NCBI RefSeq assembly: GCF_025751495.1
Contig: NZ_JAOWKZ010000004.1
Location: forward strand, 124,001-188,000
Length of the DNA stretch: 64,000 nt
Origin: Albidovulum litorale
GTDB lineage: Bacteria > Pseudomonadota > Alphaproteobacteria > Rhodobacterales > Rhodobacteraceae
Reading direction: 5' to 3'
How positions within the stretch are numbered: the first letter of the stretch is position 1; each line of letters opens with the position of its first letter. This document shows positions 2,792 to 39,367 of this stretch, in pieces. A program made the translations under genes and the position numbers. The notes under the pieces were generated by a model that saw only the letters and a list, made by a program, of their open reading frames with translations, was not told where the DNA came from and made no database searches.

Positions 2792-4390
2792 TCAGAAGGG
2801 CACGAAGCGGGGCAGGGTCGGCAGGCTTTCCCGCATGAAGCCGAGTAGACGTTCCTCAGCCTGGCTTTCGGTTTCATCCCCACCAATCGGCGTGACGAAG
2901 CGTACGAGCGCGCCATCGGTGCGGCCGAGGGTGAGGCTATCGGTCAGGACGCTGAGCTTGGCCCGCACATCATTAGACACCCGTTTGCCCCGGCCTTCAA
3001 ACCAGTAATAAACGATCTGCCGGGCCAGTCCCTTCTGGATGACCGCCCGCACGGCGGTAAAGCGGCCATATCCGGCCTCGGTCATATCCACCGGCACTTC
3101 CTCAAAGGAATAGACTTCCCAACCACCGGTTGGCAGGCAAACCTCGGGCGAATGGATGCCCTGCCCTTCTGTCTGCTTGGAGTAATAGGCGACAAACATG
3201 CTGACTAGGTCGTCGCCTGGCCGCTGATAGAAAGCGTTCAGGTAGTCGTCGGCTCCCAACACACCGGCGATCTCTGGTTCCAGCGCCACCGTATAACTTT
3301 GCCAATCGTCGATCTGGCGCGGGAAGAGTACCAAAGGGTCGCGCGCTGCAGGGGTGGCAGGCGGTGCGGGCAAAGTGTGCCATGCCAGCGAAGCTGCACC
3401 GGTCAAGAGCATGCCGAGCAGAAGACCCGTTGAATACCGTATCGCGAAGATGCGTGCGAATATTCCTCCGAACCCCTGGAAGTCGAGATCGATCGCATCT
3501 GCAAGCGGCATCGGATTGGGTGTCAAGCGTTGCAAGCCGATGGCCATCAGGAACAGGATTCCGATGCAGAGAATGAAGATGACCCAGCCCTCGAAGAAAT
3601 GCAGAAAACCTTCTGCCTGCTCGATCCCGTAACGGTCGACAAGAACCCCGATTACGCCAATGCGGAAGGAATTCATCAGCACCGTTAAGGGTGCCGCCGA
3701 GAGCAACAGCACGAGTTTGTGCCAGAGCGGACCACGGTAGAGGATCGCAAAAAGATATGAAAAGCTGAGGATCGGGAAAAGGTAACGTAAGCCCGAGCAG
3801 GCCTCGGCAACCTGAAGCTTGTACACGCCGAGGTCGATCACATTGCCTTCGAGATAGACCGCGACGCCCATCAGGCTCACGAACCAGACGCCGATGGCCG
3901 AAGACACCCATTGCAGGAAAATCGTGAGTTTCCAGTAGAGGATCTGCGGCAGCGGCAGCATGAAGACGAGATGAATTACCGGAAGCTGGTGCCGTCGGCC
4001 GCGATCCCAGCCAAAGACGGTCAGGACCACGCCGCCCACCCAGATAATCATCGCATAGGTGACGATATCCGGCACCCGCATCAGATTGCCGAGGGTCGCG
4101 ACTGCAAGACCGAGCGCGATCACCAGAACGCCCGGCCACCGAACCACGGGGCTTATCGTCGGCCTCGGCATCCGGCGCAATTCGCGCAAGAAAAGGTACA
4201 GGGAGACTAGCGGAATGAGCGGTCCGTGACTGTATTCCGCGGTCGACCAGGCATCGGCAAGCGAAACAAATCCGATCCAGAAGATCGGCACCGATACCGC
4301 GAGGAGCAGCACGAAAAGCGTGAATCCGATCGGGCTCACACTCAGACTGTCGGTCTCAAATGGCCGGTCCGGGCGGGTTGAATGTGTCAT
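2792..4390 (-). CDS. xrtD: VPLPA-CTERM-type exosortase fused to EpsI domain (XrtD-like)
   Basis: A 532-residue protein with an N-terminal exosortase of about eight transmembrane helices (residues 20-300) and a periplasmic EpsI domain from about residue 325 to the end. The exosortase catalytic set is visible: Cys198 in [10 protein letters not shown], Arg243 in MNSFRIG and His264 in GFLHFFEG. Exosortases are thought to cleave C-terminal PEP-CTERM-like signals and transfer the protein to a cell-surface anchor. The fused EpsI domain ([12 protein letters not shown] at about residue 425) is usual for the type found in Rhodobacteraceae. The likely substrate is the VPLPA-type protein at 13781-14440. 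The XrtD subtype is inferred from this partner and the fusion. Confidence 0.9.
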
Positions 4391-9210: not shown

Positions 9211-9269
9211 TCGGAGACCTTGTTGCATGATTTCATGGCATGACGTCACAAACGCGTGAAACGGTCAAA

Positions 9270-9959
9270 TCAATAACCCGTTCCCCTTATTACCACGCGG
9301 ACGGTCGCAAGAAGCAGTTTGATATCGGTCATGAGTGAAAGTTCCTGATAGTATGCCGTGTCAAATGCCACGCGCTGGGAAAACTCGCTTTCATTGCGAA
9401 CGGATACCTGCCACGGCCCGGTGATGCCGGGCCGGAGAGAATAATATGCCGTTCCGGAATAAAGCGACCGCTGGCTGGGCATCATCGGGCGTGGCCCGAC
9501 TAGAGACATATCGCCGACCAGCACATTCCAGAGCTGGGGCAATTCATCCATTGAGGTCTTGCGCAGCAACCTGCCAATCCGGGTGATGCGGGGGTCCGAT
9601 TTGAGCTTTTGAGTGGAGTTCCATTCAAGCCGGGCCTCGGCATTTTTTGACAGGTACTCCTCCAGCATTCGATCGGCATCCGGAACCATCGTGCGAAGTT
9701 TCAGCATCCGGAAGGTTCGTCCGCCGCGTCCGACACGTTCGTTCCAGTAGAAGGGTGAAGAACCGTCTAGGGCTACGGCCACGGACAGTATGAACACCAC
9801 GGGCAGCACGACCATGCCGGATAGAAGCACCGCGAGAACGTCGAGGGCGCGCTTAAAAACGTTGCGGTACAGACCAGATTGCCGTCGAATATTCACAGAG
9901 CCCGCCGATGCGCTCGACATCCCGATTTGATCAGAAAGGTCATTAATCTGAAGCGTCAT
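9270..9959 (-). CDS. Priming sugar transferase (polyprenyl glycosylphosphotransferase)
   Basis: A 229-residue bacterial sugar transferase. One N-terminal transmembrane helix (about residues 40-65) is followed by the catalytic domain with [10 protein letters not shown], the [20 protein letters not shown] block and GPRP, then RPGITGPWQ. Enzymes of this WbaP/PssY-like family start repeat-unit synthesis by moving a sugar-1-phosphate onto undecaprenyl phosphate at the inner membrane. It lacks the extra N-terminal helices and CoA-like domain of WbaP, so it is the short form. The ATG at 9959 was chosen over 10004. It sits 59 bases upstream of the TPR lipoprotein gene and is likely in the same transcript. 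Confidence 0.92.
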
Positions 9960-10422
9960 GTGTGCGATCACACCGAATAGGCACCAATGCGCGGCCGTAT
10001 ACAACCGCCCGAACGTTTACTACCACGATTCCTGCCCCCCTAGGTAAGGGCGCATAAGTCTTAGCATCTTTGAATCGGGCACGGAATCAACAATTAGGAA
10101 ACCAGGGCAGATTCGCGGCGCGGGGCCACCAGATTGGGCTTTAGCCCGGGTGTTGCGTATCGTGGCTGGCGGAACCGTTTCCGTACCGTGTACAGTGTGG
10201 GTTAGTATTATGATTGTGCGCTGCGATGGCGGGGTTGACGCAGATCTGGAAGACATCGAATCAAACTGCGTATACTGGGTGAAGTCAGGTCTGGATGAGT
10301 CAGCGCCATTAAGTCGCCGAACTTGTATGATCCCTGCTTTCTGGTCTACCCGTCGGCGGTGGACACCGTGGCCGGATCTGCCCATGGTTCGAGCACACGG
10401 TATTGAGTGAGTTGGATTGCGG
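9960..10422. promoter_or_regulatory. Divergent promoter region between sugar transferase and ATPase genes
   Basis: A 463-base gap with no convincing gene, separating leftward and rightward polysaccharide transcripts, so it must hold promoters for both. It contains a perfect small hairpin GGGCT-TT-AGCCC at 10136-10147 and a possible extended -10 (TATACT) near 10271-10276, about 150 bases before the ATPase start. No good -35 partner is seen. I find no sigma-54 type promoter here. Confidence 0.4.
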
Positions 10423-11307
10423 ATGAACAAGGTCGTGGAGACCGATACGAACGACAGCGTTGGCTTTTACATGGAATTCTATGGGTTCCGGGAACGCCCG
10501 TTCACGCTTGTTCCGGATCCGGACTTCCTGTTCTGGTCGGCTCAGCATCGTCGTGCCTATTCCGTGCTCGAATTCGGAATTCTGAGCCGTGCGCCCATCA
10601 CGCTCGTTACAGGCGGTGTCGGCTGCGGCAAGACGACGCTGTTGCGTGAACTCCTGCGCCAGTTCGGATCGCGAGTGACCGTCGGCCTGATCTCGAACGC
10701 TCAGGGCGGTCGGGGCGAATTGATCCAGTGGGTACTGAACTCGCTTGGCGTTCCGTTCGACGCTGGGGCAGGTTATGTGCCGTTGTTCCAGAAGCTTCAG
10801 GATTATCTGATCGAGGAATACGCCGCTGGCCGGCGTGTCGTTCTGATCTTTGATGAAGCCCAGAACCTCTCCGCCGAAAGCCTTGAAGAACTCCGGATGC
10901 TGACCAATATCAATTCGGGAAAAGACGAAGTGATCCAACTGGTTCTGGTCGGTCAACCCGAGTTGCGGGACATGGTGTTGCACCCGTCCCTGCGGCAGCT
11001 TGCCCAGAGAATTGCGGCGAGCTTTCACCTCTTGCCGCTCGACGAGCAATCGGTGATCGAACTTATTTCATACCGGCTAAAGGCAGCCGGTGGCAGCGGC
11101 GAGGAGATAACGCCCCAAGCTGCGCGGATGATATACAAGGTGACCCATGGCGTGCCCCGTCTGGTCAACCAGCTTTGCGACATGGCATTGCTCTATGGGT
11201 GGAGCATGGACAACCCTCATGTCGACGGTTCGGTGGTACAATCGGTAATCGACGACGGTGTGTTCTTTGCGGCGCAGATCGCGGCGGAGGAAGAGAAGCA
11301 TAAATGA
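10423..11307 (+). CDS. ExeA/XrtA-associated-type AAA ATPase
   Basis: A 294-residue AAA+ ATPase. Walker A is GGVGCGKTT (Lys70) and Walker B is VVLIFDEAQ (Asp145-Glu146), followed by a GQPELRDMV sensor-like segment. The opening MEFYGFRERPFTLVPDPDF is the signature of the ExeA-like ATPase that accompanies Wzz and BY-kinase genes in exosortase loci. It overlaps the Wzz gene by four bases (ATGA), so the two are translationally coupled. The exact role, perhaps powering or gating polymer assembly, is unknown. ATG 10423 and ATG 10471 are both possible starts; the family N-terminus favours the latter. Confidence 0.88.
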   Translation: MNKVVETDTNDSVGFYMEFYGFRERPFTLVPDPDFLFWSAQHRRAYSVLEFGILSRAPITLVTGGVGCGKTTLLRELLRQFGSRVTVGLISNAQGGRGELIQWVLNSLGVPFDAGAGYVPLFQKLQDYLIEEYAAGRRVVLIFDEAQNLSAESLEELRMLTNINSGKDEVIQLVLVGQPELRDMVLHPSLRQLAQRIAASFHLLPLDEQSVIELISYRLKAAGGSGEEITPQAARMIYKVTHGVPRLVNQLCDMALLYGWSMDNPHVDGSVVQSVIDDGVFFAAQIAAEEEKHK

Positions 11308-12836
11308 ATCTGGATCTGTCATTCTATTTCGCGGTCTTCCTGAGGCGGCTGCATTATTTCATCATCATTTTCGCACTCGTCTCGGCGGCTTCGATCGCCG
11401 CCGCTTTTCTGCTGCCTGCGGTCTATTCAGCCAATTCCATCCTTTTGGTCGAGGCGTCATCGATTCCGGGTGCGCTCTCTGCGCCAACGGTGCAGGCGCA
11501 GGCTTTGGAAAAGCTGCAGACAATCGAAAAATACCTCATGACCCGGACCAATCTCTTGAGGATCGCACAGGATCTTAAAGTGTTCCCGGATATGGATAAA
11601 ATGTCGCCCGACGATATCGTTCAGTCGATGCGCAGCTCTACCCAGATCAACAAGAACGCCGGCCGTGGCCAAGCAACAATTATGGGCATCGCCTTCGAGG
11701 CCGAAACCGCCGAAGCTGCTGCGGGTGTCGTCAATGAATATGTCACGCTTATCCTTCAGGCTGATCTTGAGCTGCGAACCGGCAATGCCGAGGATACGGT
11801 CGAATTTTTTCGGCAGGAAGTTGCCAGACTGTCAGGGGAACTGGACATTCAGAGCGCAAAAATCCTCGATTTCCAGAACAAGAATTCTGATGCGTTGCCA
11901 AACACGCTGAACTATCGGCTCAATCAGCAGCAGATCCTGCAAACGCGCCTTGCGAACGCCGAGCGTAACATTGCTTCCCTGAAGGATCAGAAGGCGCGGA
12001 TGGTCGCGATCTTCGAGTCGACCGGTCAGATCAGCGGGGCCTCTGCCAACCAGACGCCCGAGCAGCGGCAACTCGACCAGCTCCGAACCCAGTTGAATGG
12101 CATGTTGGCGGTCTTTACCGAAACCAACCCCAAGGTCGTTTTGATCAAGCAGCAGATCGCCCAGCTTGAAGAAGTCGTTAAATCGCAACTGCCGTCCGAC
12201 CCGTCCGGCAATCCAGCCGCGACGCTGCTGGATGTCCAACTTGCCGATCTGGATACGCAGATCGAGATTCTGGAAGAAGAGCGGGTCAATTTGATCGCTG
12301 AGTTGGAATCGCTCAAAGGCTCAATCGATCGGACACCGGCGAACCAAATTGCGTTGGATGCGTTGCAACGCGACTACAGCAACATACAGCAGCAATACAA
12401 CTCGGCTGTAGGCAAACTGGCTGCGGCTTCCGCGGGCGAACAAATCGAGGTCAGATCAAAGGGTGAGCGTATTTCTGTGGTTGAACCCGCCACCGTGCCC
12501 GCAAAACCCTCGCGCCCAAATCGAGTAATGATCGCGGGCGGTGGTGTCGCGGCTGGTGCGTTTCTCGGTGCTGCCTTTATTGTATTGATCGAGGTTTTGA
12601 ACCGTGCGGTCAGGCGGCCCACTGATCTGGTCCGGACGTTTGGCATCATGCCGATCGCGACAATTCCTTATATGCGCACGCCAGGTGAAACGATGATGCG
12701 GCGGACCGCATTTGCCGCAATCCTGCTTGTCGCGGTCGTGGGCATCCCGGCCATGGTCTATGCGGTGCACGTTTACTATGCACCGCTCGATAGCATCGTC
12801 GGGAAGCTTGCCGCAAAGATCGGCGTTCGGTTGTGA
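11304..12836 (+). CDS. Wzz-like polysaccharide chain-length/co-polymerase protein
   Basis: A 510-residue inner-membrane protein with a transmembrane helix at about residues 15-38, a long periplasmic coiled-coil region (about 140-390), and a second helix near 410-430 preceded by the Pro-rich segment VPAKPSRPNR that marks Wzz/GumC-type proteins. A third hydrophobic helix lies near the C-terminus (about 470-490), which is not usual for the basic family layout. It sets polymer length with the adjacent tyrosine kinase and the Wza. It starts inside the ATPase gene (ATGA overlap) and ends 30 bases before the kinase gene. Confidence 0.88.
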   Translation: MNLDLSFYFAVFLRRLHYFIIIFALVSAASIAAAFLLPAVYSANSILLVEASSIPGALSAPTVQAQALEKLQTIEKYLMTRTNLLRIAQDLKVFPDMDKMSPDDIVQSMRSSTQINKNAGRGQATIMGIAFEAETAEAAAGVVNEYVTLILQADLELRTGNAEDTVEFFRQEVARLSGELDIQSAKILDFQNKNSDALPNTLNYRLNQQQILQTRLANAERNIASLKDQKARMVAIFESTGQISGASANQTPEQRQLDQLRTQLNGMLAVFTETNPKVVLIKQQIAQLEEVVKSQLPSDPSGNPAATLLDVQLADLDTQIEILEEERVNLIAELESLKGSIDRTPANQIALDALQRDYSNIQQQYNSAVGKLAAASAGEQIEVRSKGERISVVEPATVPAKPSRPNRVMIAGGGVAAGAFLGAAFIVLIEVLNRAVRRPTDLVRTFGIMPIATIPYMRTPGETMMRRTAFAAILLVAVVGIPAMVYAVHVYYAPLDSIVGKLAAKIGVRL

Positions 12837-12866
12837 TCTGTTTTAAGGGCGAGGATTACGCGTAGT

Positions 12867-13688
12867 ATGGAAAAACTCGAAGCTGCACTGGCCAAAGCCC
12901 GAGAGATGCGCAAGAGTACCCTCGGTACGCCCAGGGTCGACCGTGAACCGGTTTCGCCGAAGGTTATGGCGGCGGGTGACTGGTTGAGTTTGCCGGAATT
13001 CAAGCTGACGCCGGCGCGTCTGCAACGAAACAGGATCACCGCAATTTTAGGGGGCAAGGACGCAACCCCCTATGACATGCTCCGTTCGCGTACGATCCGT
13101 CTGATGCGCGAGAAGGAATGGAGCCGTCTCGCCGTGACGTCGCCCGGGCCTGCCTGCGGCAAAACAACCGTAGCCCTCAATCTTGCACTCAGCCTGTCCC
13201 GGCAAAAAGACCTTCGTGTCATGCTATTTGACCTCGATCTGCGGAGGCCAGCACTGCACAAGGTGGCCGGCCTGACGCCTAAGCATTCGTTCCACGAGGT
13301 TCTGGATGGCAGGATTGCCTTCGAAGACCAGGCCGTGCGGATTGGAGAGAACCTGATTCTGGCAATGAACGCGACAGCGTGCCGGAATCCCTCTGAGCTG
13401 TTGCAGGCGAGCGGGACGGGCGAGGTATTGGATGAGATCGAGCGGCGGTGGCAGCCGGACGTGATGCTGTTTGACATGTCTCCGATGCTTGCCAGCGACG
13501 ACAATGTCGGGTTCCTTGGGAACGTGGACTGCGCCCTTCTGATCGTGGCGGCAGAACGGACTACCCTTCCAAACATCGATGTCTGCGAGAAGGAACTCGC
13601 ACAGTTAACGAATGTTCTGGGTATCGTACTCAACAAGTGTCGCTATGCCGACAAACTCGTCGGATACAGCTACGATTCCTACTCATAG
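12867..13688 (+). CDS. CpsD/Wzc-C-like BY-kinase
   Basis: A 273-residue cytoplasmic P-loop kinase. Walker A is SPGPACGKTT (Lys99), the BY-kinase Walker A-prime is VMLFDLDLRRP (about 118-128), and Walker B is VMLFDMSP. The last 16 residues hold a small tyrosine cluster (four Tyr in YADKLVGYSYDSYS), the usual autophosphorylation tail. BY-kinases phosphorylate themselves and control polymerisation through the Wzz partner encoded just upstream. In this locus it would work with the separate Wzz at 11304-12836, as in CapA/CapB systems. It ends next to a strong hairpin serving the convergent gene. Confidence 0.9.
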   Translation: MEKLEAALAKAREMRKSTLGTPRVDREPVSPKVMAAGDWLSLPEFKLTPARLQRNRITAILGGKDATPYDMLRSRTIRLMREKEWSRLAVTSPGPACGKTTVALNLALSLSRQKDLRVMLFDLDLRRPALHKVAGLTPKHSFHEVLDGRIAFEDQAVRIGENLILAMNATACRNPSELLQASGTGEVLDEIERRWQPDVMLFDMSPMLASDDNVGFLGNVDCALLIVAAERTTLPNIDVCEKELAQLTNVLGIVLNKCRYADKLVGYSYDSYS

Positions 13689-14440: not shown

Positions 14441-14802
14441 TTCGAATTTCCTTCCACCCATGTGTCGCCGGTCAGCGGCACGTGATATCCCACGTATTTT
14501 GTACCACATTCTGAACGATTTGTAACACCGAAATGCCATAATTGAGCTTCTTTTCGGAATACAGGGAGTGTCTTCAGCTTTAGGTTGAGTAAACTTTCGA
14601 ATCAGAAACTTAGCCTAAGAATTTGTGCCCACTGTTTCCGATTTGGGAACGGCGCGTTTCGCCGGACGGGAAACAGTTCTCCGATGCTGCGGAAATCGTT
14701 TCTGCGGAACGGACGGTGAAGCCTTTGTCGGCTGTCTCGCGAACGGCCTCTGCTTGGCGAAAGGCTCGGTGGGCTGGACAAAACTGCATCACTACGCGAA
14801 TC
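14441..14802. other. Non-coding gap with nested inverted repeat
   Basis: A 362-base gap between the divergent VPLPA-CTERM and glycosyltransferase genes. It holds an inverted repeat with arms ACTGTTTCC (14631-14639) and GGAAACAGT (14669-14677), inside which sits a smaller GGCG-CGTTT-CGCC hairpin (14651-14663). This could be a leader structure of the glycosyltransferase transcript. Promoters for both genes are expected here, but no consensus pair stands out. Confidence 0.4.
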
Positions 14803-15696
14803 GTGGCGTATCGGAACGGAAAGGTCACACGCCTGAAATTCGCGGTCATCATTCCACACTACAACGACATGACGCGCCTCAGGCGGTGTCTGGGTGCTCT
14901 CATGCTCGACGCAACCAGCGGTGTTGATGTGGTCGTCGTCGATAACGGCACTCCAGAACCGCTCGACAACATAAAAGCAGACTTTCCGTTCGTGCGTTTT
15001 GTCACCGAGGATACGAAGGGTGCCGCCTCTGCACGCAATCGCGGTGTTCGCGAAACAGACGCTGAAGCGTTCGCCTTTCTGGATGCCGATTGTATTCCCG
15101 CACCCGGTTGGCTTGCCGCCGCTGAGTCAGCTGCCGACAAATCAGACATTGTCGGCGGAGGAATCGACGTCTTCGACGAAACTCCACCGCCGCGTACCGG
15201 GGCACAGGCCTTTGAGACAGTGTTCGCCTTCAACTATCGGTATTACGCTGAAAAGAAGGGTTTTTCCGTTACCGCCAATCTGGTCACCTCTCGACGCGTC
15301 TTCGAGGCAGTGGGGCCATTCATCGACGGCGTGTCTGAAGATGAGGAATGGTGTTGGAGAGCGCGTCGGAAAGGATTCCAGCTGGCTTTGGATGAGGACA
15401 TGCGCGTTTCACACCCGACACGCTCGGACTGGGCCGCGTTGGAACGCAAATGGCGTCGTCTGACGCGCGAAATGTTTGAACTGCACCTCACGCGAAACGG
15501 TCTTGGTGCCAGATTTATATGGGGGCTAAGGGCGCTGGCGATGCCAGCTAGTGCGCTTGCCCACCTTCCACGCCTGGTCTTCAGTTCCAAACTCGCCTCA
15601 CCCGGTGAAAGGCTCCGCGGCGCGATGACGCTCATCCGACTACGAATGAAGAGGGCGGTATGGATGCTGAGACAGGCATTCGGCGGAACGATCTGA
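14803..15696 (+). CDS. Family 2 glycosyltransferase
   Basis: A GT-A fold glycosyltransferase of about 297 residues. The N-terminal strand FAVIIPHYND is followed by VVVDNGTPEPL, the substrate-binding AASARNRG segment and the DxD-like motif FLDADCIP, and later DEEWCWRARRKG, typical of GT2 enzymes using a nucleotide sugar. It probably adds a sugar to the repeat unit. The start is unclear: GTG 14803 is in frame, but the family N-terminus would begin at CTG 14833, which has GGAAAGG eight bases upstream. An ATG lies only far upstream (14623) and gives a leader unlike the family. Confidence 0.85.
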   Translation: MAYRNGKVTRLKFAVIIPHYNDMTRLRRCLGALMLDATSGVDVVVVDNGTPEPLDNIKADFPFVRFVTEDTKGAASARNRGVRETDAEAFAFLDADCIPAPGWLAAAESAADKSDIVGGGIDVFDETPPPRTGAQAFETVFAFNYRYYAEKKGFSVTANLVTSRRVFEAVGPFIDGVSEDEEWCWRARRKGFQLALDEDMRVSHPTRSDWAALERKWRRLTREMFELHLTRNGLGARFIWGLRALAMPASALAHLPRLVFSSKLASPGERLRGAMTLIRLRMKRAVWMLRQAFGGTI

Positions 15697-17687: not shown

Positions 17688-18078
17688 CTTTCTGTCCCTT
17701 CGTTGCGCGAGAGGCGCGCGCCAGCGTGAGTGTATCCCCAGCACGAACAATGCGTCGCAACGTGGCAAAGATTGGGCGCAAATGTAGTCTCGATGTGACC
17801 GCAATCGCGAATTCGGCGCTTATTGTGCACTATACGTTAAGTAAACGGGCGTATTTCCGCCGATTTGACCGCATTCGCGGTGGTTCATCTGGAAACAGTC
17901 GGCCCGAACGCCCGTTTGCCGCGTTCTTAACCAAGGCAGGATTAGACCGTGTATGGGTCCAGCTTTGCGGCGGTCCCGTTCGAAGAAGCTTACGCAACAT
18001 GCCCGGCGCGGGTCTCGACACTCTGTGTAGGACAGAGGCCATGATGGTTCTTAAGCAGCGGGCGACAGGATGAAAGAT
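17688..18078. promoter_or_regulatory. Divergent intergenic region with distant inverted repeat
   Basis: A 391-base gap between the leftward beta-helix gene and the rightward spike-base gene; it must hold both promoters. A 10-base inverted repeat (AAACGGGCGT at 17843-17852, ACGCCCGTTT at 17908-17917) flanks 55 bases and could fold as one long stem-loop. No gene is supported here, and no full CtrA-type site (TTAA-N7-TTAA) was found. Confidence 0.35.
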
Positions 18079-18339
18079 ATGGACAAGTTCTCAGACTATC
18101 CCACAAGTCTCACCGCCCCTGCGCGGGATGGTGCGACGGTGACACCCGACGACGTGAACGACCTGACGATTCTGCCGCGCGCTCTTTACGTGGGTCAGGC
18201 CGGAAATCTCTCCGTCCGGCTTGCAGGAGGGCAGGCAGTGCTGTTCCAGAATGTTCCGGCCGGGACCCTGCTGCCGGTGCGTGCAAGCGGGATCAATGCG
18301 GTGGGCACCACGGCCGCAGGGATCGTGGCGCTTTGGTAG
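18079..18339 (+). CDS. Spike base protein, RCAP_Rcc01079 (GhsA)-like
   Basis: A small 86-residue protein that matches the layout of the gene-transfer-agent/phage spike base family: an N-terminal YPTSLTAPARDGATVTPDD, then LTILPRALYVGQAGNLSVRL, a Gly/Val-rich strand region with VLFQNVPAGTLLPVRASG, and the closing GTTAAGIVALW. In Rhodobacter capsulatus the homologous GhsA forms the base of head spikes that help gene-transfer-agent particles bind capsule. No signal peptide. ATG 18079 is favoured over 18070 because AGGA lies eight bases upstream of it. It converges on the large esterase/lectin-like gene with a shared terminator. Identity is by pattern memory, not by a search. Confidence 0.72.
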   Translation: MDKFSDYPTSLTAPARDGATVTPDDVNDLTILPRALYVGQAGNLSVRLAGGQAVLFQNVPAGTLLPVRASGINAVGTTAAGIVALW

Positions 18340-18385
18340 GCTGATGCTATCGTCCGGTTTGCACCGGGCGCAGGTCCGAAGCATA

Positions 18386-18423
18386 AAAACGGCGCGCTTG
18401 CCATAATGGCCGCGCGCCGTTTT
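18386..18423. terminator. Bidirectional intrinsic terminator
   Basis: A 12-base perfect stem (AAAACGGCGCGC with GCGCGCCGTTTT) around a 14-base loop, carrying A-runs on the left and T-runs on the right, so that it ends in U-tracts in both directions. It sits between the convergent spike-base and esterase/lectin-like genes. Confidence 0.85.
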
Positions 18424-18442
18424 CAGTTCTTATGATCCCCTT

Positions 18443-20683
18443 TCAGGTGGCGTTTGCGCCCAGTTTCCAACTGTCCGCGTTGGCCGAACTTGCCGGGCCG
18501 GTGATCGATTTGTACGGCGTTCCGGCGGGGGCCAACCCGTTGGGTATCGTGCTGAACCAGGTCCTGAGATACTCGATCTGGCCCACGAATTGCGGGGCCC
18601 CAGAATTCCGCGCCAGATAGCTCAACGACCGGTTACTTTGGAACAGTCCATTACCGCTCGCTGTAAACGGCACGGTCGCCACCAGTTGTCCGTCGATCGC
18701 CACCCGAAAGGCTTTCTCCACCTGATTGGCCGAACAGACGATGTCATACCAGACACCAGATGAAAGAGCCGTCGGGACCGTCACGGCATTCAGGGTCCTC
18801 AGGCCGGTACCATCCTCAACCGTAACCCTCAGCGCCCCGGTATTCATCAATTCGACATCGAACCCGGTACTCGACTGCGCGAAGAGGATGGCGGTCGAAC
18901 CGGGCAGGGCGTCAAAGCGAATTCGCGCCGCATGAGTGATCGCACTCGTTCCGGCGGGAACGTTGGCGGGATCGAGAAAGTAGGGACCCGTGGCAGAAGT
19001 CAGGAAGCTCGGCGCACCGACGGGAAGCGTGTTCGCCAGAACACCGGGATCGGCAAGCGGACGCACGGGTATGCCGTTCAGACCTGTGCCCCCGATGTTG
19101 ACGATTGGCAGGTTCTTCCAGGTCTCGGCGATATAATCGTCCGGATAGGCGATCATGCCGCTGGCGCCGCCTTCGCCGTATTGGATCGAATCGACATAGG
19201 TGAAGGGCCCGCTATTAGGCATGATACGGACCTTCCCATTGATGATCTGGGTTGTCGCTGCAGGCGTTCCGTTGATCTGGAAGCCCATGACTTCGGTCCA
19301 GTGCGGTTGTGTTGTCCCGAGGGCAGGCTCATTCCGTGCCCGGCGCGTCGTGGTGATAGGGCCTGCAGAGGACCAGACCTCTACCCAGGCCCCCGAAGGG
19401 TCCCAGAGACATTGATCAAACTCCGGAACCGGCCAGTTGGTCAGACCTGCCGACTGAAGGATTGCCAGCGCCGTCAGCCGTGCCCATGCCTGCAAGCCGT
19501 CAGCCGTATCGCCCGACGGGTGGGAGAAGTCAGCCCATCCGCCCGCACCGTCGCTAAAGCCGTTCACGTAGTTAGTAGGCTCCAGTCCTAAAGGCAGGAA
19601 CATCGTCGCATCTGGCAGGGCCAGCATGGCCCGCCAGCTGACCCGTGCGGCTTGCTTGTTGACAAGGTTGAATTGCAGCCCACCGCCTAAGTAATGCGTT
19701 GCGTCCTGCAGGTCGGCGTCGATGTCGAAACGGTGCGGACCATAGGGAACCCAGCGGGTATGGGAATAGTCGTAGAGCTCCCCGAACCAGTGATCGGCAT
19801 GATAGCTGCCGCTTGCGCCATGGGTGATGGTCGCCGGAAAGGTGACGGGCGAACCATCCATCCGCCTGCCCGAAAACAGCGGAAACAGGGCCTCTCCGTA
19901 GTCTGAGCCCAGGCTGCCAGGGGCCGCGAACCATGACATGGCGGCCAGCCCGACCTTCTGCCCGTCGGCCGTCGCAAAGTCATGCAAGGCCCGGTCGTTT
20001 GCCCATTCGCGGCCCGGGTCGGAATCGTTGACAAGCCCGCGCGGGTCCGAACTGGGAACCGTGTGGAAGATCACAGCGAATTTTTCGCCCGGCCGCGCTT
20101 CGATGAGCGTTGCGGCCATGGCGGCCGCGCCTGCGGTCAGGGGCTGGGAATCGGTGATGAAATGGCGCACGGGCCCGTCCGAAGCGCCATGGAATATCTG
20201 GACCGCGTCGGGGTCCGAAACGGCGGGCGGCATGGTGTTGTCGTGAAACGCGGACAAGATACGGTCCGGTTCCGACTGCCCCCAGATTGCGATGACATGA
20301 CCGACGCCAAACCGCATGGCGCCCTGCGCTGTCACGCCCGGCTGTGCCTTCAATCTGACCTCTGGCCGGTACCAGGTGTTCGCGCGCGGCACCGCCAGCA
20401 GGCCGCTCCAGTGACCGGCCCCGTCGACAGCTGACATGTCGGTCCAGGCCGTTGTTTCTGCACCGCCGTCGTCAAGTGATATTGCCCGCGCCTCGACTGT
20501 TTGGCCCGGCGTGCCGGTGCCCGAAAGCGGTACATCCGCGACCGCGAGGCCAATACCCGCGCCGCTGTCGAAGATCGTGCGGTCCCGGCTGAAGGCGGCC
20601 AGCGTGACGTTGACCGGTTGGGGGGCTGGTCCGGATGTGCCAGGTCGGCTGCCACGAAAAGAGAGCGAGGAAAGTGATATCAT
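18443..20683 (-). CDS. Large non-secreted SASA-like esterase plus LamG-like lectin protein (possible spike/fibre)
   Basis: A 746-residue protein without a signal peptide. An N-terminal strand-rich region leads to an SGNH/SASA-type esterase segment with the block IAIWGQSEPDR (Ser137) and a late DFSHPSGDTADG that could supply Asp/His. The C-terminal 150 residues look like a LamG/concanavalin-type jelly roll (AARIRFDALPGS, then GVWYDIVCSANQ). Together this resembles a phage or gene-transfer-agent fibre that binds and trims acetylated surface sugars, perhaps a counterpart of R. capsulatus GhsB. Lack of export signal fits a particle protein. ATG 20683 was chosen; a longer frame to 20767 is possible. 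Function is inference. Confidence 0.6.
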   Translation of the reverse strand: MISLSSLSFRGSRPGTSGPAPQPVNVTLAAFSRDRTIFDSGAGIGLAVADVPLSGTGTPGQTVEARAISLDDGGAETTAWTDMSAVDGAGHWSGLLAVPRANTWYRPEVRLKAQPGVTAQGAMRFGVGHVIAIWGQSEPDRILSAFHDNTMPPAVSDPDAVQIFHGASDGPVRHFITDSQPLTAGAAAMAATLIEARPGEKFAVIFHTVPSSDPRGLVNDSDPGREWANDRALHDFATADGQKVGLAAMSWFAAPGSLGSDYGEALFPLFSGRRMDGSPVTFPATITHGASGSYHADHWFGELYDYSHTRWVPYGPHRFDIDADLQDATHYLGGGLQFNLVNKQAARVSWRAMLALPDATMFLPLGLEPTNYVNGFSDGAGGWADFSHPSGDTADGLQAWARLTALAILQSAGLTNWPVPEFDQCLWDPSGAWVEVWSSAGPITTTRRARNEPALGTTQPHWTEVMGFQINGTPAATTQIINGKVRIMPNSGPFTYVDSIQYGEGGASGMIAYPDDYIAETWKNLPIVNIGGTGLNGIPVRPLADPGVLANTLPVGAPSFLTSATGPYFLDPANVPAGTSAITHAARIRFDALPGSTAILFAQSSTGFDVELMNTGALRVTVEDGTGLRTLNAVTVPTALSSGVWYDIVCSANQVEKAFRVAIDGQLVATVPFTASGNGLFQSNRSLSYLARNSGAPQFVGQIEYLRTWFSTIPNGLAPAGTPYKSITGPASSANADSWKLGANAT

Positions 20684-20908
20684 TCTGAGTTCCCGTCTTG
20701 CGGGACGGCGCACCGGCCGGACAGAGAGGTCCCGGATATCGATGGCGCTCGTCCGGTTGGTCGTCACCGACCGGGAACGCTCCGCCCCTGTACCCGGCGG
20801 ATCGCCAGGTCCGGTGGCGACGCATCGCCGCGCTGGATAACATTTAGGATACGGGCGTTGCGTGACCGGTTGTCGTGGCGTTCGCCACAGCAGGGATTGG
20901 TTATTTGT

Positions 20909-21613
20909 TCAGATCCGGCAAGACAGGCCCAAAGAACCTGCGACCATCCGTGCAAGCGGCCGACTGTATAACTCAGCCTCAACCTTGGGGTCGGGATGAA
21001 GCCCGTCGGGAAGGCTCTGGCTGGTAAGATAGCGGCCAGTCCACCTTGAGGTTCCGTCGAAGTAACTCACGCTTTCCTCGTCGGCCAGGTCAGCGAGCGC
21101 GGTGTAATAGGTTTCCAACTGGGGGCGCTTCAGTTTTTGGATACCGCGAACCGGGTTGGTGGCGAGAAGTATGATCGAGATGCCGGGATTCGCCTTGCGC
21201 AGCCACGAGATCATATGGCGGTGATTCGTCAGGCTCTCAGAAAGGGCAATGCCGTCCAGAAGGTCTGCGTCATTAATTGCGTATTCGATCAGCACAACGT
21301 CGAAACCATTAACTCGGGCTGCGGTGATCGCCTGCAATCCTTGCGACGAGTTCGCTCCGGTCAGACCCGTTACAGTTGCCGAGACACCGTTAGGGCTACA
21401 GTCGGTCAATCGGTCGCCAAGCTGAGTGGTCCAGAGGGCGCGACGGGTCAGGCTGGTTCCGTGCGCGCCGATCCGGATAGACCTAGTCTCATGCGCAGGA
21501 AAGCCGACAACTATGATCCGGTCATTGCGCTCGACGGACTTTGCCGGTTCGAACTGCATAGCCGCGGCGCTGGCCACGAGCAGGCACGCAGCGAGAGCGA
21601 ACCGGATTGCCAA
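20909..21613 (-). CDS. Secreted SGNH/GDSL-family hydrolase
   Basis: A 234-residue exported protein with signal peptide to about residue 19. SGNH blocks are visible: AHGTSLT (Ser54, in a GTS variant of the usual GDS), Gly87 in GLTGANSSQG, Asn114 in EYAINDADL, and Asp203/His206 in PDGLHPDP. These enzymes hydrolyse esters, including O-acetyl groups on sugars. It starts with TTG just three bases after the stop of the hexapeptide acyltransferase, so the two are coupled. An acetylase next to a likely deacetylase suggests tuning of polymer acetylation, which is inference. Confidence 0.82.
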   Translation of the reverse strand: MAIRFALAACLLVASAAAMQFEPAKSVERNDRIIVVGFPAHETRSIRIGAHGTSLTRRALWTTQLGDRLTDCSPNGVSATVTGLTGANSSQGLQAITAARVNGFDVVLIEYAINDADLLDGIALSESLTNHRHMISWLRKANPGISIILLATNPVRGIQKLKRPQLETYYTALADLADEESVSYFDGTSRWTGRYLTSQSLPDGLHPDPKVEAELYSRPLARMVAGSLGLSCRI

Positions 21614-21616
21614 TGA

Positions 21617-22201
21617 TTAGGCGAGCCCGCGTTCGGCAAGCGCGCTTTCGGTCGCGTCGGCCGCAGCGAAGCGCCCGTAATGCCCGACGTCAATCCCGGT
21701 CCGGATGACGCGGGCCGGATTTCCTGCAACCACCGATCCGGCAGGCACCGACTTGGTGACCACCGAACCGGCCCCGATGACGCAATTGTCGCCGATTTCG
21801 ATCCCGGGCAGGATCAGGCTGCGTCCGCCGATGAAACAGTTGGAGCCAATCCTGGTGTGAAGATAGAGACCACGTGTCCTGTCGTGGGTCAGAATACGGG
21901 CCTCGAATGCGACATAGGAATGCGGCCCGACATGTACGCCGATTGGGAACGTCCGATCGAATTTGGTCGAAAGCGAAAACTGTGCAGTGGGGTGGATGTC
22001 CATTCCCCAGACCCTGCGCAGGATCATACGTTTCAGATTGACCAGCAGGTTTCTTACGCCCGAAAGCCGGTTCAGGCCGCGGCGACGGGCTTTGAATTGG
22101 GGATTGGTCGCACTGGTGAGGACAGTGTCGCGAGACGGGCGACAAAACGAAGTCGTGGGTGCGAATGTTGCCGGAACGGCGGTTGCGGGGTCGAGAAGCA
22201 T
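21617..22201 (-). CDS. Hexapeptide acyltransferase (colanic-acid acetyltransferase-like)
   Basis: A 194-residue protein. After an N-terminal extension of about 60 residues comes the left-handed beta-helix region (about 75-170), with [50 protein letters not shown] and the terminal AGNPARVI motif. Members O-acetylate sugars of exopolysaccharides. The ATG at 22201 has GAGGAG upstream at a good distance. It heads a two-gene unit with the SGNH hydrolase. The unusual N-terminal extension may take part in trimer or membrane contacts; no known domain is recognised in it. Confidence 0.83.
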
Positions 22202-22360: not shown

Positions 22361-23356
22361 ATGTTTGACCTTGCTCAGAAGTTGCACATCCGGGGCGTGA
22401 TGCAGGACGAAATGACGAGTGCGAAAAGTGACCTGACTGTGATTGTCGTCAGCTACAATACATGTGCGCTGACGCTCGCCGCCCTGCGCACCCTTTTCGC
22501 GCAAACGCAGGACACGCCGTTCAAGGTTGTCGTATTCGACAATGCCTCTTCTGATGGTTCAGCTGATGCCATCGCGGAAGACTTTCCCGAGGTCGAGCTT
22601 ATCCGAAGCGAAGAGAATGTCGGCTTCGCGCGCGCGAACAATATCGTGGCAGCCGCCGCCGAAACCGAATGGCTTTTGCTCCTAAACCCCGATACCGAGG
22701 TTCACGATCGGGCCATCGACAAGCTCATGGCCTTCGCCCGAGCCCATCCGGATGCCGGGATCTATGGCGGTCGCACGGTCTTTCCGGACGGTTCACTCAA
22801 CATTGCCTCCTGCTGGATGCGGATGACACCATGGAGCGTCTTTTGCATGGCATTCGGGTTGACCGCGTTGGCGCCCAGATCCGAATTCTTCAATCCCGAG
22901 GCGATGGGCGGTTGGCAGCGGGATACGGTGCGCGAGGTCGACATCGTCGTCGGGTGCCTATTCCTGATCCGCCGTGAGCTCTGGAACCGGTTAGGCGGGT
23001 TCGATCTGCGGTACTTCATGTATGGCGAGGAAAGCGATCTGTGCCTGCGGGCGGCACGCATCGGTTGCCGGCCGGTGATCACACCGGACGCCGAAATCAT
23101 GCACATCGTCGGCGCAGCATCAAAAACGCTGGGCAGAAAACTTGTCCTTCTCGCCAAGGCCCGTTCGACCCTGATCCGCGACCATTGGGCACCTGCCTGG
23201 GTGCCCTTTGGCATGGCAATGATGTGGTCATGGGCAGCGATCCGCGCCGCGGCGTTCCAATGCCTCGCGCTGGCAGGAGGGGAAAAGGTTCGGGCGAAGG
23301 CTGCGGCCTGGTCCGAAACCTGGCACGCGCGTCATGACTGGTTGAAAGGCTACTGA
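22361..23356 (+). CDS. Family 2 glycosyltransferase (rhamnosyltransferase-like)
   Basis: A 331-residue GT2 enzyme. The N-terminal strand LTVIVVSYNTCALTLAAL, the FDNASSDGSADAI loop, RANNIVAAAAETEWLLLLNPDTEV (the DxD-like site) and GGFDLRYFMYGEESDLCLRA are the classic motifs of rhamnosyltransferase-type glycosyltransferases. It likely extends the lipid-linked repeat unit at the inner membrane. ATG 22361 has AAGGGG seven bases upstream; a second start, at MTSAKSDL, is also plausible. The sugar donated cannot be told from sequence. Confidence 0.9.
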   Translation: MFDLAQKLHIRGVMQDEMTSAKSDLTVIVVSYNTCALTLAALRTLFAQTQDTPFKVVVFDNASSDGSADAIAEDFPEVELIRSEENVGFARANNIVAAAAETEWLLLLNPDTEVHDRAIDKLMAFARAHPDAGIYGGRTVFPDGSLNIASCWMRMTPWSVFCMAFGLTALAPRSEFFNPEAMGGWQRDTVREVDIVVGCLFLIRRELWNRLGGFDLRYFMYGEESDLCLRAARIGCRPVITPDAEIMHIVGAASKTLGRKLVLLAKARSTLIRDHWAPAWVPFGMAMMWSWAAIRAAAFQCLALAGGEKVRAKAAAWSETWHARHDWLKGY

Positions 23357-23477: not shown

Positions 23478-24959
23478 GTGATCCATAGGCAGAGCGCTCA
23501 GTCTGACGGCGCGATTGCCGTTCCGCCGGATGACGGGCGGGGCGCCATCGTCGTTTTCCTATTTGTCATTGCGCTGGTGATCCCGGTTGAATTCCGGGTC
23601 GGAACGTTGGCCCTTTCCCTTCCGCGTCTGATACTATTGATTACGATCATACCAACGACGATCGGCCTGTTCACTGGTCGGTTTGGCAGGATATATCTCG
23701 TCGATATTCTCTTCGCCCTTCACGGTTTCTGGGTTTTGCTGAGCATTGCCCTGAACAATCCGGTGCGCGTTGTCGAAGCCGCCGGTATCTATAATATCGA
23801 GTTTTTTGGCGCCTATGTGCTCGCGCGGGCCTGTATACGAACACCACAGGCATTCTACAGATTGATCCGTGCCGTACTCGTGTTCACGGTCCTTTCATTG
23901 CCGCTGGCAATCTTCGAATCCCTGACGGATGAGTCACTCGTGCTGAGCCTCATCGAAAAAATCCCGGGTGTAGACACGGTGAAACAGCTCTCCATGCCGC
24001 CGCGTTTGGGGCTTCACCGTTCGCAAGTCTCGTTCCAGCATCCAATACATTACGGTCTGTTCTGCACAGCAGTCCTGGCTTTGACATGGATTGGAATGAA
24101 GGGTGTCCTGACCAACACCCTGCGCTACCTTGCGGTCGCTGCCGTCGGCGCCGCTGTTTTTTTGTCCCTGTCGAGTGGTGCATTGCTGGCCGCACTCATG
24201 CAGGGTGGATTGATTGTCTGGAATTATGTGTTTCGTAGAGTGTCCCGGCGCTGGCTGTTGCTCGCCGGGATATTCGCGTTTGGTTATGTTTTAGTCGACC
24301 TTCTATCGAACAGGACACCGATCCGCGTTTTTATGAGTTACGCGACCTTCTCGGCCCATAACGCCTTTTGGCGTGGGATCATCTTTGAGTGGGGCCTGAA
24401 GAACGTCTGGGACAATCCAATTTTCGGGCTTGGATTGCGGAATTGGATCAGACCAAGTTTCATGCGTTCGGGCAGCATCGACAATTACTGGCTTGTTATG
24501 GCAGTAAAATTTGGCATTCCGGGCTTTGCAATGGTGGCCGGTGGGTATCTCGATGCGATGATCAGGGTCGGACGTCGAAAGCTCACGCCCGGATCATTCA
24601 TTTCCAATCTGCGTCTCGGCTGGATGTTTATGTGCATCGGTTTGGCATTCGCATTGGCCACGGTTCACATCTGGGGCCCGCTGCATTCGTTCGTGTTTTT
24701 CCTAGTGGGATCCGGCATGTGGATAGTCAGCGCCACTGATGTGGCGGTCACCGACGGCGCGACGACTGCGAACACGATTACGCGAGACAACCTTACGTGG
24801 TCCAGATCTCATCCCGAGCGTGGTAGAGATCGGGATGAAGTGGGATTCGCGAGAAAAACTGAGCGCGAAAAGTTGGAAGACGAAACGCGTTTGGCGCGAT
24901 ATACGCGGTTTGCTGGTGCTCAATCCGAAATTGACAGGCGGCGAAAAGACGGTAACTGA
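23478..24959 (+). CDS. O-antigen ligase/polymerase-like membrane protein (Wzy family)
   Basis: A 493-residue protein with about ten to twelve hydrophobic helices and a large loop in the second half, resembling Wzy/WaaL O-antigen polymerase or ligase families. Segment HRSQVSFQHPIHYGLF and later NPIFGLGLRNWIRP correspond to the conserved periplasmic loop region. It probably joins repeat units into the long polymer at the periplasmic face. The last 70 residues are strongly charged and non-membrane, an unusual tail. The GTG start at 23478 lacks a well-placed ribosome-binding site, so the true start is uncertain. Confidence 0.78.
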   Translation: MIHRQSAQSDGAIAVPPDDGRGAIVVFLFVIALVIPVEFRVGTLALSLPRLILLITIIPTTIGLFTGRFGRIYLVDILFALHGFWVLLSIALNNPVRVVEAAGIYNIEFFGAYVLARACIRTPQAFYRLIRAVLVFTVLSLPLAIFESLTDESLVLSLIEKIPGVDTVKQLSMPPRLGLHRSQVSFQHPIHYGLFCTAVLALTWIGMKGVLTNTLRYLAVAAVGAAVFLSLSSGALLAALMQGGLIVWNYVFRRVSRRWLLLAGIFAFGYVLVDLLSNRTPIRVFMSYATFSAHNAFWRGIIFEWGLKNVWDNPIFGLGLRNWIRPSFMRSGSIDNYWLVMAVKFGIPGFAMVAGGYLDAMIRVGRRKLTPGSFISNLRLGWMFMCIGLAFALATVHIWGPLHSFVFFLVGSGMWIVSATDVAVTDGATTANTITRDNLTWSRSHPERGRDRDEVGFARKTEREKLEDETRLARYTRFAGAQSEIDRRRKDGN

Positions 24960-24974
24960 GGCAACGGAGATCGG

Positions 24975-25136
24975 ATGGCGGATATGGAGGCCGATCGGTA
25001 TTCACCATCCGGTGTTCTTACGATAGACGTCCTTCCATATTACTATGCGCATCGCCGGAAATCTGAGCCAGCAACCGGATTGCGCAAAACGCAGTTATCC
25101 GTGGTGATACAGTGTATCGAGTTGATGATTTTGTGA
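24975..25136 (+). CDS. Possible small ORF ahead of the GT4 gene
   Basis: A 53-residue frame starting ATG 24975 with ACGGAG six bases upstream and ending 14 bases before the ATG of the next glycosyltransferase. It reads MADMEADRYSPSG and later DVLPYYYAHRRK. I recognise no family. It may be a small coupling ORF, or the displaced N-terminus of the next gene if a frameshift occurred. Low confidence that it is a separate protein. Confidence 0.25.
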   Translation: MADMEADRYSPSGVLTIDVLPYYYAHRRKSEPATGLRKTQLSVVIQCIELMIL

Positions 25137-25150
25137 CGGGCGCGCGCCGG

Positions 25151-26311
25151 ATGCATGTGGACCTATCCCAAGGACCGGCCATCAGGGCCTTGATGGAGAT
25201 GCCCGGCAACCTTGTCGGTGTTGGGATGACCTGCCGGTCGCTGTTGCTGGGGGCAGCGAATGCCGGGACGCCGGTCGATCTCTTCACCTCTTATATCGAC
25301 GGAGAGAAACCGGCCGGTCTGTACATCCATTCTGTTTTGCCGGACTTTCTGAAGATCTTGCCGTACAGCATTTCTCGCCACCTGACCTCATCGCGGTTGC
25401 GACGGAAGTTCCTGGAAGCAATCGGAGACGACGAGATTGCCTATCTCTGGCCATCGACCGCGCTGAGTGTTTATGAGGCTCTTGCCGCAAGGGGTGTCAC
25501 TATCGTCTCCGAGATGGTCAATACCCGTATGGCTGTCGCCAAGCCTTTGTTGGATTCAGCATATGAAGGGCTTGGTCTTGAGCCCGCGCACGGCATCACC
25601 GCTGCCAGGATCGACGAACAGAACGCCCGGCACGGATTGTCTACGGCGATTATTGCACCTAGCCCGGCAGTCGAGAGTTCATTTGTAGACTCTGCCTATG
25701 CGCCGAGGATTGTCCCGACCAGTTATGGAACTTGGGTGCCCAAAGTCCTGAAGCCGCGGCCAGAGCGCTTCGGTGGCGCACCGGTGGTTTTTCTCTTTGT
25801 GGGTCGTCTTTGTGTCCGCAAGGGTGCGCATTTTCTGCTCGAGGCTTGGCGCAATGCGCCGAAAGGTGCGGTTCTGCGGATCGTGGGAGAGATTGAACCG
25901 GCGATGCGGAAGCTTTTCGCCGATGTGCTCGACGCGCCGAATGTGTCCTGTGCCGGTTTCATGCACAACGTCGCGCTGGAATATGAGAGGGCGGATGTCG
26001 CGGTGCTTCCGTCACTCGAAGAAGGCGATCCGATCGCAACCTATGAAGCTGCGGCGCATGGCGTTCCGATCATCGCTTCCACTGCCGGCGGCGGCCGTAT
26101 CGCGTCAGAGACCGGGGCCATCAACATCGTCGATCACTTGGATGCTGAGTGCCTTCGCGACCGGATTTCAGAATTCGCCGCCTCCAGGGATCTGCGTCAG
26201 AACTGGGGCGCTGCCGCGCGCAATGCATCTCTTGCCTATGACTGGAACACGGTCGCGCCGAACAACATTCGGCGCCTCTACGATTTTCTGGATCAGCAAG
26301 CCGGCGACTGA
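25151..26311 (+). CDS. Family 4 glycosyltransferase
   Basis: A GT-B glycosyltransferase of about 386 residues. The donor-binding domain starts VVFLFVGRLCVRKGAHFLLEAW (about residue 205) and ends with the acidic motif LPSLEEGDPIATYEAAAHGVPIIAS, where Glu residues bind the nucleotide sugar. The N-terminal acceptor domain has EMPGNLVGVGMTCRSLLL. It likely adds a sugar to the repeat unit. GTG 25112, GTG 25133 and ATG 25151 are all in frame; none has a strong ribosome-binding site. It ends 15 bases before the convergent trhO gene and closes the exopolysaccharide locus. Confidence 0.85.
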   Translation: MHVDLSQGPAIRALMEMPGNLVGVGMTCRSLLLGAANAGTPVDLFTSYIDGEKPAGLYIHSVLPDFLKILPYSISRHLTSSRLRRKFLEAIGDDEIAYLWPSTALSVYEALAARGVTIVSEMVNTRMAVAKPLLDSAYEGLGLEPAHGITAARIDEQNARHGLSTAIIAPSPAVESSFVDSAYAPRIVPTSYGTWVPKVLKPRPERFGGAPVVFLFVGRLCVRKGAHFLLEAWRNAPKGAVLRIVGEIEPAMRKLFADVLDAPNVSCAGFMHNVALEYERADVAVLPSLEEGDPIATYEAAAHGVPIIASTAGGGRIASETGAINIVDHLDAECLRDRISEFAASRDLRQNWGAAARNASLAYDWNTVAPNNIRRLYDFLDQQAGD

Positions 26312-38129: not shown

Positions 38130-38957
38130 ATGTCCAATGCCGCACTTGAGACCGCCATCGAAGCCGCCTGGGAGGCGCGCGAAACGATCACGCCAGCCAC
38201 GAAGGGCGAAACCCGCGAGGCGATCGAGGATACGCTGACCGCACTCGACAGCGGCAAGCTTCGCGTGGCCGAGCGGCAGGCGGACGGCAAATGGCATGTG
38301 AACCAATGGGCCAAGAAGGCGGTGCTCCTGTCCTTCCGCCTGACCGACATGCATGAGATTTCCGGCTCCAACGGTGGGTCGAACTGGTGGGACAAGGTCC
38401 CCTCCAAATGGCAGGGCTGGGGCGAGAACCAGTGGCGCGCGGCAGGCTTCCGTGCCGTACCCGGCTCCATCGTCCGCCGCTCGGCCTTCATCGGCAAGGG
38501 CGTGGTGCTGATGCCCTCCTTCGTCAATATCGGCGCCTATGTCGATGAGGGCTCCATGGTCGATGGCTGGGCCACGGTCGGCTCCTGCGCGCAGATCGGC
38601 AAGAACGTGCACCTCTCAGGCGGCGTCGGCATCGGCGGCGTGCTGGAACCGATGCAGGCCGGACCAACGATTATCGAGGACAACTGCTTCATCGGCGCTC
38701 GTTCCGAGGTCGTCGAAGGCTGCATCGTGCGCGAGGGCTCGGTCCTCGGCATGGGCGTCTTTATCGGCCAGTCGACGAAGATCGTCGACCGCGAGACCGG
38801 GGACGTGATGTATGGCGAAGTGCCGGCCGGTTCGGTCGTGGTTGCGGGCTCCATGCCCTCGAAAGGCGGCATCAGCCTCTACTGTGCGGTGATCGTGAAG
38901 AAGGTCGATGCGAAAACCCGCGCCAAGACCTCGATCAACGAGTTGTTGCGTGACTGA
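38130..38957 (+). CDS. dapD: Tetrahydrodipicolinate N-succinyltransferase
   Basis: A 275-residue enzyme of lysine/diaminopimelate synthesis that transfers succinate from succinyl-CoA to tetrahydrodipicolinate. An N-terminal helical domain is followed by left-handed beta-helix hexapeptides, including [31 protein letters not shown]. Length matches the family. The ATG at 38130 is preceded by GGGGGAACGCC. It overlaps the following small gene by eight bases. Confidence 0.95.
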
Positions 38958-39297
38958 TACCGACAAACAGGCCAAATCCAAGCGCCCGCAGCAGGTCTAT
39001 ACGCTCGTCGTCGAGGTTGGCCGCAAGACCGGCGACGGGCTGCCCAAGGGCGCGACCGGGGCAGCGCTGATGATCTATGCCAGTGGTGTAGACGAGGATG
39101 AGGCTGTGCGCGAGACGGTTGCGATCCTGAAACAGGCCGACATGGCGCCTCTCGACGTCACCGGATACGGCACGGCCGACGAACGCGTCGCACAGGGCCA
39201 TGAGATCGAGGATGACGAACGCGAACTGATGGACCGTGCCTTGGCCGAAAACTCGGTGATCGTCGCGCAGGTAACGCCGTTTTTCGACAAGGCCTGA
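38950..39297 (+). CDS. Conserved hypothetical protein
   Basis: A 115-residue acidic, cytoplasmic protein with an alpha/beta pattern: [18 protein letters not shown] at the N-terminus and a C-terminal [18 protein letters not shown] recognise no domain. Its GTG start (38950) lies within the end of dapD, so it is likely co-expressed with lysine synthesis and may be a small partner or stress protein. Function unknown. Confidence 0.7.
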
Positions 39298-39367
39298 GTG
39301 CGCCCCCCCTTGGCCTTTTGGCGTCACGCGCTCATATAGGGGGCGACACGGAATAACGGGGGCAGAC

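Follow-up and report, generated by a model that had tools for sequence, protein, structure and literature searches.

Gene transfer agents (GTAs) are tame virus-like particles that swap DNA between bacteria. The closest described counterpart of the locus analyzed here is the head spike of RcGTA, the GTA of Rhodobacter capsulatus, with its base GhsA and its fibre GhsB (Rcc01079 and Rcc01080, respectively). The first residues of the RcGTA fibre (IALGLGLGL) occupy hydrophobic pockets in the base pentamer (PMC7296036), and the capsule genes beside the spike genes make the spike receptor (PMC10218006). CtrA half-sites have been reported in the RcGTA late promoters, those of the spike genes included, and two of the three also carry putative GafA sites (PMC9638019). 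The RcGTA tailspike TspA resembles the pair described below in being a polysaccharide-active GTA accessory protein that is encoded off the main cluster and regulated by GafA, but it is a tail-attached trimer that degrades biofilm, and its gene lies by lysS and not in an exopolysaccharide (EPS) locus (PMC13420450).

We analyzed a window of 64,000 nucleotides from Albidovulum litorale (the whole stretch of DNA to which the coordinates in Table 1 refer), in which genes for an 86-residue spike base and a 746-residue protein lie within an XrtD (VPLPA-type exosortase) EPS locus. The locus shares with RcGTA the family and fold of the spike base, a putative fibre with a hydrophobic, docking-like N-terminus and a lectin-type part, adjacent surface polysaccharide genes, and a GTA cluster elsewhere in the genome. 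It differs from RcGTA in that the fibre gene is convergent and may have its own promoter, in that the surrounding genes form an XrtD EPS cluster, and in the putative fibre itself, which is longer than GhsB (746 versus 325 residues), contains putative esterase and laminin-G (LamG) parts, and has no detected relation to GhsB. We consider it likely that the pair forms the head spike of an RcGTA-type GTA made by this strain, with the fibre binding the local EPS.

Results

A head spike base gene in an exopolysaccharide locus

An earlier, sequence-only reading of this region had placed the 86-residue protein in the Rcc01079/GhsA spike base family, and the profile, sequence, and structure comparisons all agree. 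The last codon of the open reading frame ends at 18,336, and the stop codon extends to 18,339 on the forward strand. The protein aligns with positions 1–85 of the 85 in the NF048002 profile, at 110.7 bits against a curated cut-off of 28 (E = 3e-32). It also matches PHROG 12296 (E = 5e-23), a family that includes phage homologs, and the RcGTA spike base itself (Rcc01079, PDB 6tb9; E = 2e-9). At the level of sequence, this similarity is far above chance. From an alignment of 46 relatives, AlphaFold produced a model with a pLDDT of 91.6, for which the best Foldseek match is 6tb9 (TM 0.80/0.82, E = 3e-6), and the predicted structure has the same small jellyroll fold as that RcGTA protein. The other best match is the spike base of phage Carin1 (PDB 8cjz), which has the same fold and detectable sequence similarity, but belongs to a phage capsid and is only 26% identical to the window protein; Foldseek gave no significant match to the model beyond the RcGTA and Carin1 spike bases. 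Where RcGTA has Glu12, which binds a cation shared with the capsid, the window protein has Thr12. That position is variable in the family (Glu in 7 of 46), so Glu12 does not define it. A whole-genome search found the spike base in single copy. Judged by its sequence and predicted structure, the gene encodes a genuine spike base and adds a member to an already known family.

The neighbors of the pair are EPS genes (Table 1), and the locus also encodes a VPLPA-CTERM protein. On the reverse strand, positions 15,750–17,804 encode a 684-residue protein that combines a choice-of-anchor Q domain with a long low-complexity linker of Ser, Thr, and Gly; most loci that have this fibre keep the protein beside the spike base.

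Table 1. Coordinates of features in the 64,000-nucleotide window
Feature	Position	Strand	Basis or remark
VPLPA-CTERM-specific exosortase XrtD	2795..4339	-	TIGR04152, 662 bits vs 400
Polyprenyl sugar-phosphate transferase (priming enzyme)	9270..10004	-	TIGR03022/03025
PEP-CTERM-type ATPase, chain-length determinant, and tyrosine kinase genes	10417..13688	+	TIGR03015, TIGR03007, TIGR03018
GT2 glycosyltransferase	14623..15696	+	PF00535
Spike-base promoter element CGAACG-N16-TTAAC-N11-TAG	17902..17946	+	Motif upstream of spike bases
Head spike base protein, GhsA/Rcc01079 family, 86 aa	18079..18339	+	NF048002, PDB 6tb9, fold
Putative head spike fibre, 746 aa	18443..20683	-	Spike-base linkage, docking-like N-terminus, LamG lectin
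Laminin-G/ConA lectin domain of fibre	18557..18961	-	PF13385, Foldseek
Putative SGNH-like esterase part (GQS135–137, D385-x-x-H388-P389)	19499..20308	-	Invariant in 24/24 relatives; no profile or fold match
Putative base-docking peptide MISLSSLSFRGS	20648..20683	-	Pattern of spike-adjacent proteins, kept in orthologs, RcGTA precedent (PMC7296036)
Possible own promoter of fibre gene, GCAACG-N11-TG	20828..20861	-	At ~−180 in most orthologs
GDSL-type hydrolase of EPS locus	20909..21613	-	PF13472
Hexapeptide O-acetyltransferase	21617..22201	-	PF14602/PF00132; tracks this fibre type
GT2 glycosyltransferase	22361..23356	+	PF00535
Wzy-type O-antigen ligase/polymerase	23478..24959	+	PF04932
GT4 glycosyltransferase	25112..26311	+	PF13692

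A putative fibre linked to the spike base

The spike base and fibre genes are convergent, with ~100 bp between their stop codons. The fibre family occurs at 24 named bacterial loci, two of which end less than 100 bp from the fibre, leaving 22 that are assessable. A spike base lies in the same stretch in 21 of these 22, convergent at 65–213 bp in 19, convergent at 3.4 kb in one, and co-directional in one; the fibre–base linkage is near-obligate. The co-directional, operon-like arrangement is seen at locus L202, and also at L095. The closest relative of the fibre is that of Defluviimonas aestuarii (88%). The family has no match in phage records, and one partial relative was found in viral contigs. 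At L197 (Actibacterium ureilyticum, 7932–10157), the fibre has the docking-like start MISIGLAIGAG and no spike base lies within the 8 kb flanks. Frame changes interrupt the fibre gene at L071 (9986–12480; a Frigidibacter genome, matching L199 in genus and locus), through either assembly error or decay.

In other genera, the gene directly 3′ of the spike base encodes a protein that starts MIGFSLGLN, MLGLSLGLR, MLGLDIGLG, MIGVGIGVG, or the like. An alternating docking-type start of this kind was found in 25 of 79 such 3′ neighbors versus 115 of 1732 other genes (p = 1e-10). For a looser docking pattern, the counts were 32 of 79 versus 198 of 1732. The 746-residue protein starts MISLSSLSF, which fits only the loose pattern, its S-S breaking the strict alternation of GhsB, and its orthologs start MISLSSLSV, MISLSALTL-like, MLSLSALSI, or MIYLSSLGL. 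The strict motif M(hx)3h was dropped as the sole docking test, having missed many fibres, including that of the window. The protein has no signal peptide, which is compatible with its start being a spike-docking peptide, and no other large docking-type partner adjoins the window spike base.

The sequence-only reading had also given the 746-residue protein an esterase/lectin plan. The lectin is confirmed: residues 575–709 match PF13385 (Laminin_G_3) at 47.4 bits against a cut-off of 27.6 (E = 3e-12), and Foldseek returned pentraxin and LNS domain matches for the C-terminal end. In distant relatives, the lectin end retains 24–36% identity and the middle 48–71%, as expected of a fast-changing receptor-binding part. 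The esterase, on the other hand, remains putative and is indicated only by residues GQS135–137 and D385-x-x-H388-P389, which are invariant in 24 of 24 relatives; these positions are a signature of SGNH hydrolases, with the Ser of block I and the Asp-x-x-His of block V as candidate catalytic residues. Pfam and PDB profile searches gave no significant match to the fibre middle, and its hhalign comparison with a SASA fibre was not significant. Structural comparison with the RcGTA spike, which the sequence-only reading had proposed for both proteins, showed the base to be GhsA-like with RcGTA as its best match; no relation of the fibre to GhsB was detected. The AlphaFold model of the fibre has a pLDDT of 49, is usable only at the LamG end and in one N-terminal beta domain, and is poor in the esterase part.

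SASA or GDSL carbohydrate-esterase matches were also found in 3 of 10 other spike-adjacent proteins with docking-like starts (the GDSL match being below the curated cut-off), which suggests that esterase-armed spikes may recur. Phage tailspikes with SGNH/SASA-type deacetylase domains, such as G7C gp63.1, are tail proteins of lytic phages. They would work alike if the window fibre is a deacetylase, the likeness being one of function.

Linkage of spike and exopolysaccharide genes across Rhodobacteraceae

The sample comprised ±10 kb around 81 spike bases (the window and L038–L117), from nearly as many genera, and 40 control regions, most of them drawn from these genomes as well; genes were called in both sets with the same simple codon-usage caller. 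At least one core EPS family lies within 10 kb in 57 of 81 spike loci versus 5 of 40 controls (p = 9e-10), and at least three core EPS families were found in 38 of 81 versus 1 of 40 (p = 9e-8). Given these counts, the spike–EPS linkage known from R. capsulatus extends family-wide as a tendency, one that we did not find reported for many different EPS loci in the open-licence literature. The proposal that this strain co-locates its attachment gear with its surface-sugar genes thus finds a conserved counterpart across the family, and the capsule genes that the sequence-only reading had placed beside the R. capsulatus spike genes are indeed adjacent and make the receptor (PMC10218006).

The fibre and ACETYLTRANSFERASE go together: an acetyltransferase ortholog, defined by at least 60% identity to the hexapeptide acetyltransferase of the window, is present in 6 of 8 spike loci with this fibre versus 0 of 73 others (p = 9e-8). 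It accompanies the fibre even in genomes whose EPS locus is to a large extent non-orthologous (L195, L197, and L198), and it is missing from 6 of 23 named fibre loci. Shared cluster ancestry explains part of the association. In functional terms, the simplest interpretation would be a fibre that recognizes, and perhaps removes, the acetyl group added by this acetyltransferase. The tracking of one acetyltransferase by the fibre type indirectly favors the earlier suggestion that ligand and receptor could evolve together.

The alternative that is hardest to exclude by sequence accepts the base as part of the GTA head but ascribes its position solely to EPS loci being recombination hot spots that gather accessory genes, with a fibre that ignores the local polysaccharide. 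In its favor, a core EPS marker is missing from the 10 kb on either side in 24 of 81 spike loci, and spike bases adjoin many unrelated EPS clusters. We nevertheless think it unlikely, given that the spike receptor of R. capsulatus is made by the capsule genes next door (PMC10218006), that the fibre type of the window tracks a single acetyltransferase (6 of 8 versus 0 of 73), and that the fibre carries a terminal lectin domain.

Promoter elements of the spike base and fibre genes

A conserved element, CagCGnnCGctGg-n2-TaaG-n5-gTTAAccc, lies upstream of spike bases and is followed ~10 bp on by a TAG-type −10 box. Trained on half of the loci, the motif was found in 30 of 41 held-out spike promoters versus 6 of 302 control promoters. 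The window promoter, which lies 177 bp upstream of the spike base gene, matches moderately well and is outscored by four other sites in the 64 kb; when the window and eight relatives were removed from training, control DNA reached its score at a rate of ~0.002 per 200 bp. Its parts are a CGNNCG palindrome that is a candidate GafA site, a TTAAC at −35 that fits a CtrA half-site, and a candidate −10 box. The spaced pattern CGAACG-N16-TTAAC-N11-TAG, drawn up with knowledge of the window site, has one perfect match in the 4-Mb genome, namely the window site.

A spike-type motif also lies ~445 bp before terL in the strain's own GTA cluster and in several others. The main GTA promoters (L037 and L158–L176), ~400–530 bp before terL, share TTGAC-n4-CGaaCGcTC-n5-TAtA, and this element, conserved between −35 and −10, may be a regulator site, possibly for GafA. 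The spacer motif TTGAC-n4-CGaaCGCTC was rejected as a regulator site shared with the spike bases, since it transferred weakly to spike promoters and the thresholds were not significant. GCAACA words enriched upstream of spike bases were dropped because their positions were inconsistent.

The spike-base promoter motif is absent upstream of the fibre gene, for which a separate promoter is possible (Table 1). In the region upstream of the fibre start (20,683–20,870, reverse strand) and its orthologs, a CCGGACGAGCG block lies ~70 bp upstream of 10 of 24 fibre genes, and TCCCGCAAGACGGGA, a small hairpin, immediately precedes the start in 7 of 24.

A convergent gene that may have its own promoter, lacks the spike-base motif, is set among EPS genes and an acetyltransferase, and encodes a protein with no detected relation to GhsB could specify a host EPS-modifying esterase, leaving only the 86-residue protein as a GTA part. 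We consider this improbable. The 746-residue protein has no signal peptide, its hydrophobic docking-like N-terminus is conserved, a spike base is near in 21 of 22 loci (including the operon-like L202, and also L095), and the base has no other large docking-type partner beside it.

GTA machinery elsewhere in the genome

The sequence-only reading had called for a search of the rest of the genome for a GTA capsid cluster, and one was found on contig C3, where a complete-looking RcGTA-like cluster encodes the terminase, portal, prohead protease, HK97-type capsid, tail tube, DUF2460 protein, hub, and megatron. A search of the genome with the capsid family PF03864 gave no match, this being the wrong capsid family. 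The genome also contains a 379-residue open frame with DUF6456, which is probably GafA, because its length is near the 382 residues of R. capsulatus GafA and because the same family also gives a match in Caulobacter, home of the GafA-like proteins GafYZ. Among 297 Rhodobacteraceae genomes, the spike base was found in 110 and PF13547 (GTA_TIM) in 264; PF13547 is present in 106 of the 110 spike-base genomes versus 158 of the 187 others (Fisher p = 0.002).

The GTA megatron domain PF13547 occurs twice in the genome, on contigs C3 and C8. The second gene (C8, ~38,622–39,518; L034) lies beside holin- and endolysin-like genes, in what is probably a prophage with GTA-like tail genes. That the spike pair is left from, or still serves, a prophage instead of a GTA is nonetheless highly improbable, for although phages encode homologous spike bases and the C8 cluster is prophage-like, no phage structural genes were found beside the pair (the local prophage remnant envisaged in the sequence-only reading was not seen), the fibre is scarce in phages, the position in EPS loci is conserved over many genera, and the promoter element is common to spike bases and GTA clusters.

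Discussion

We favor the reading of the pair as the head spike of a GTA, which builds on the established identity and fold of the base, the GTA cluster, the near-obligate fibre–base linkage, the linkage to EPS genes, and the conservation of the promoter. By analogy with R. capsulatus, base pentamers would occupy the capsid vertices, and the 746-residue protein would dock in each pentamer via its hydrophobic N-terminus, MISLSSLSF. The docked fibre would project the putative esterase part and the LamG lectin domain. The base would be expressed from the CGNNCG/TTAAC promoter, of the kind expected of CtrA/GafA late genes, and would be co-induced with the GTA cluster. The fibre would then bind, and possibly O-deacetylate, the EPS specified by the surrounding genes, whereby the particle would grip and cross the surface coat of related cells ahead of DNA injection by the tail. 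Holding the fibre and sugar genes together would keep ligand and receptor matched on locus exchange.

What is new here is the convergent layout, the large putative esterase–lectin fibre with a possibly separate promoter, the XrtD locus, and the acetyltransferase association, which make the pair a variant of the RcGTA head spike. The survey extends an observation from a single species, R. capsulatus, to a family-wide pattern, a shared promoter element, and a specific fibre–acetyltransferase pairing. As a tentative and still doubtful extension, fibre and surface-sugar genes might constitute an exchangeable ligand–receptor cassette across Rhodobacteraceae, here with a deacetylase–lectin matched to an O-acetyltransferase, for kin recognition by GTAs. 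If so, GTA particles would preferentially grip kin of the same sugar type. The pattern bears on the question of why bacteria retain GTAs: if the protein that makes first contact is inherited with the genes for the coat it grips, a kin filter would be built into the particles, and their recipient range would be predictable from one locus.
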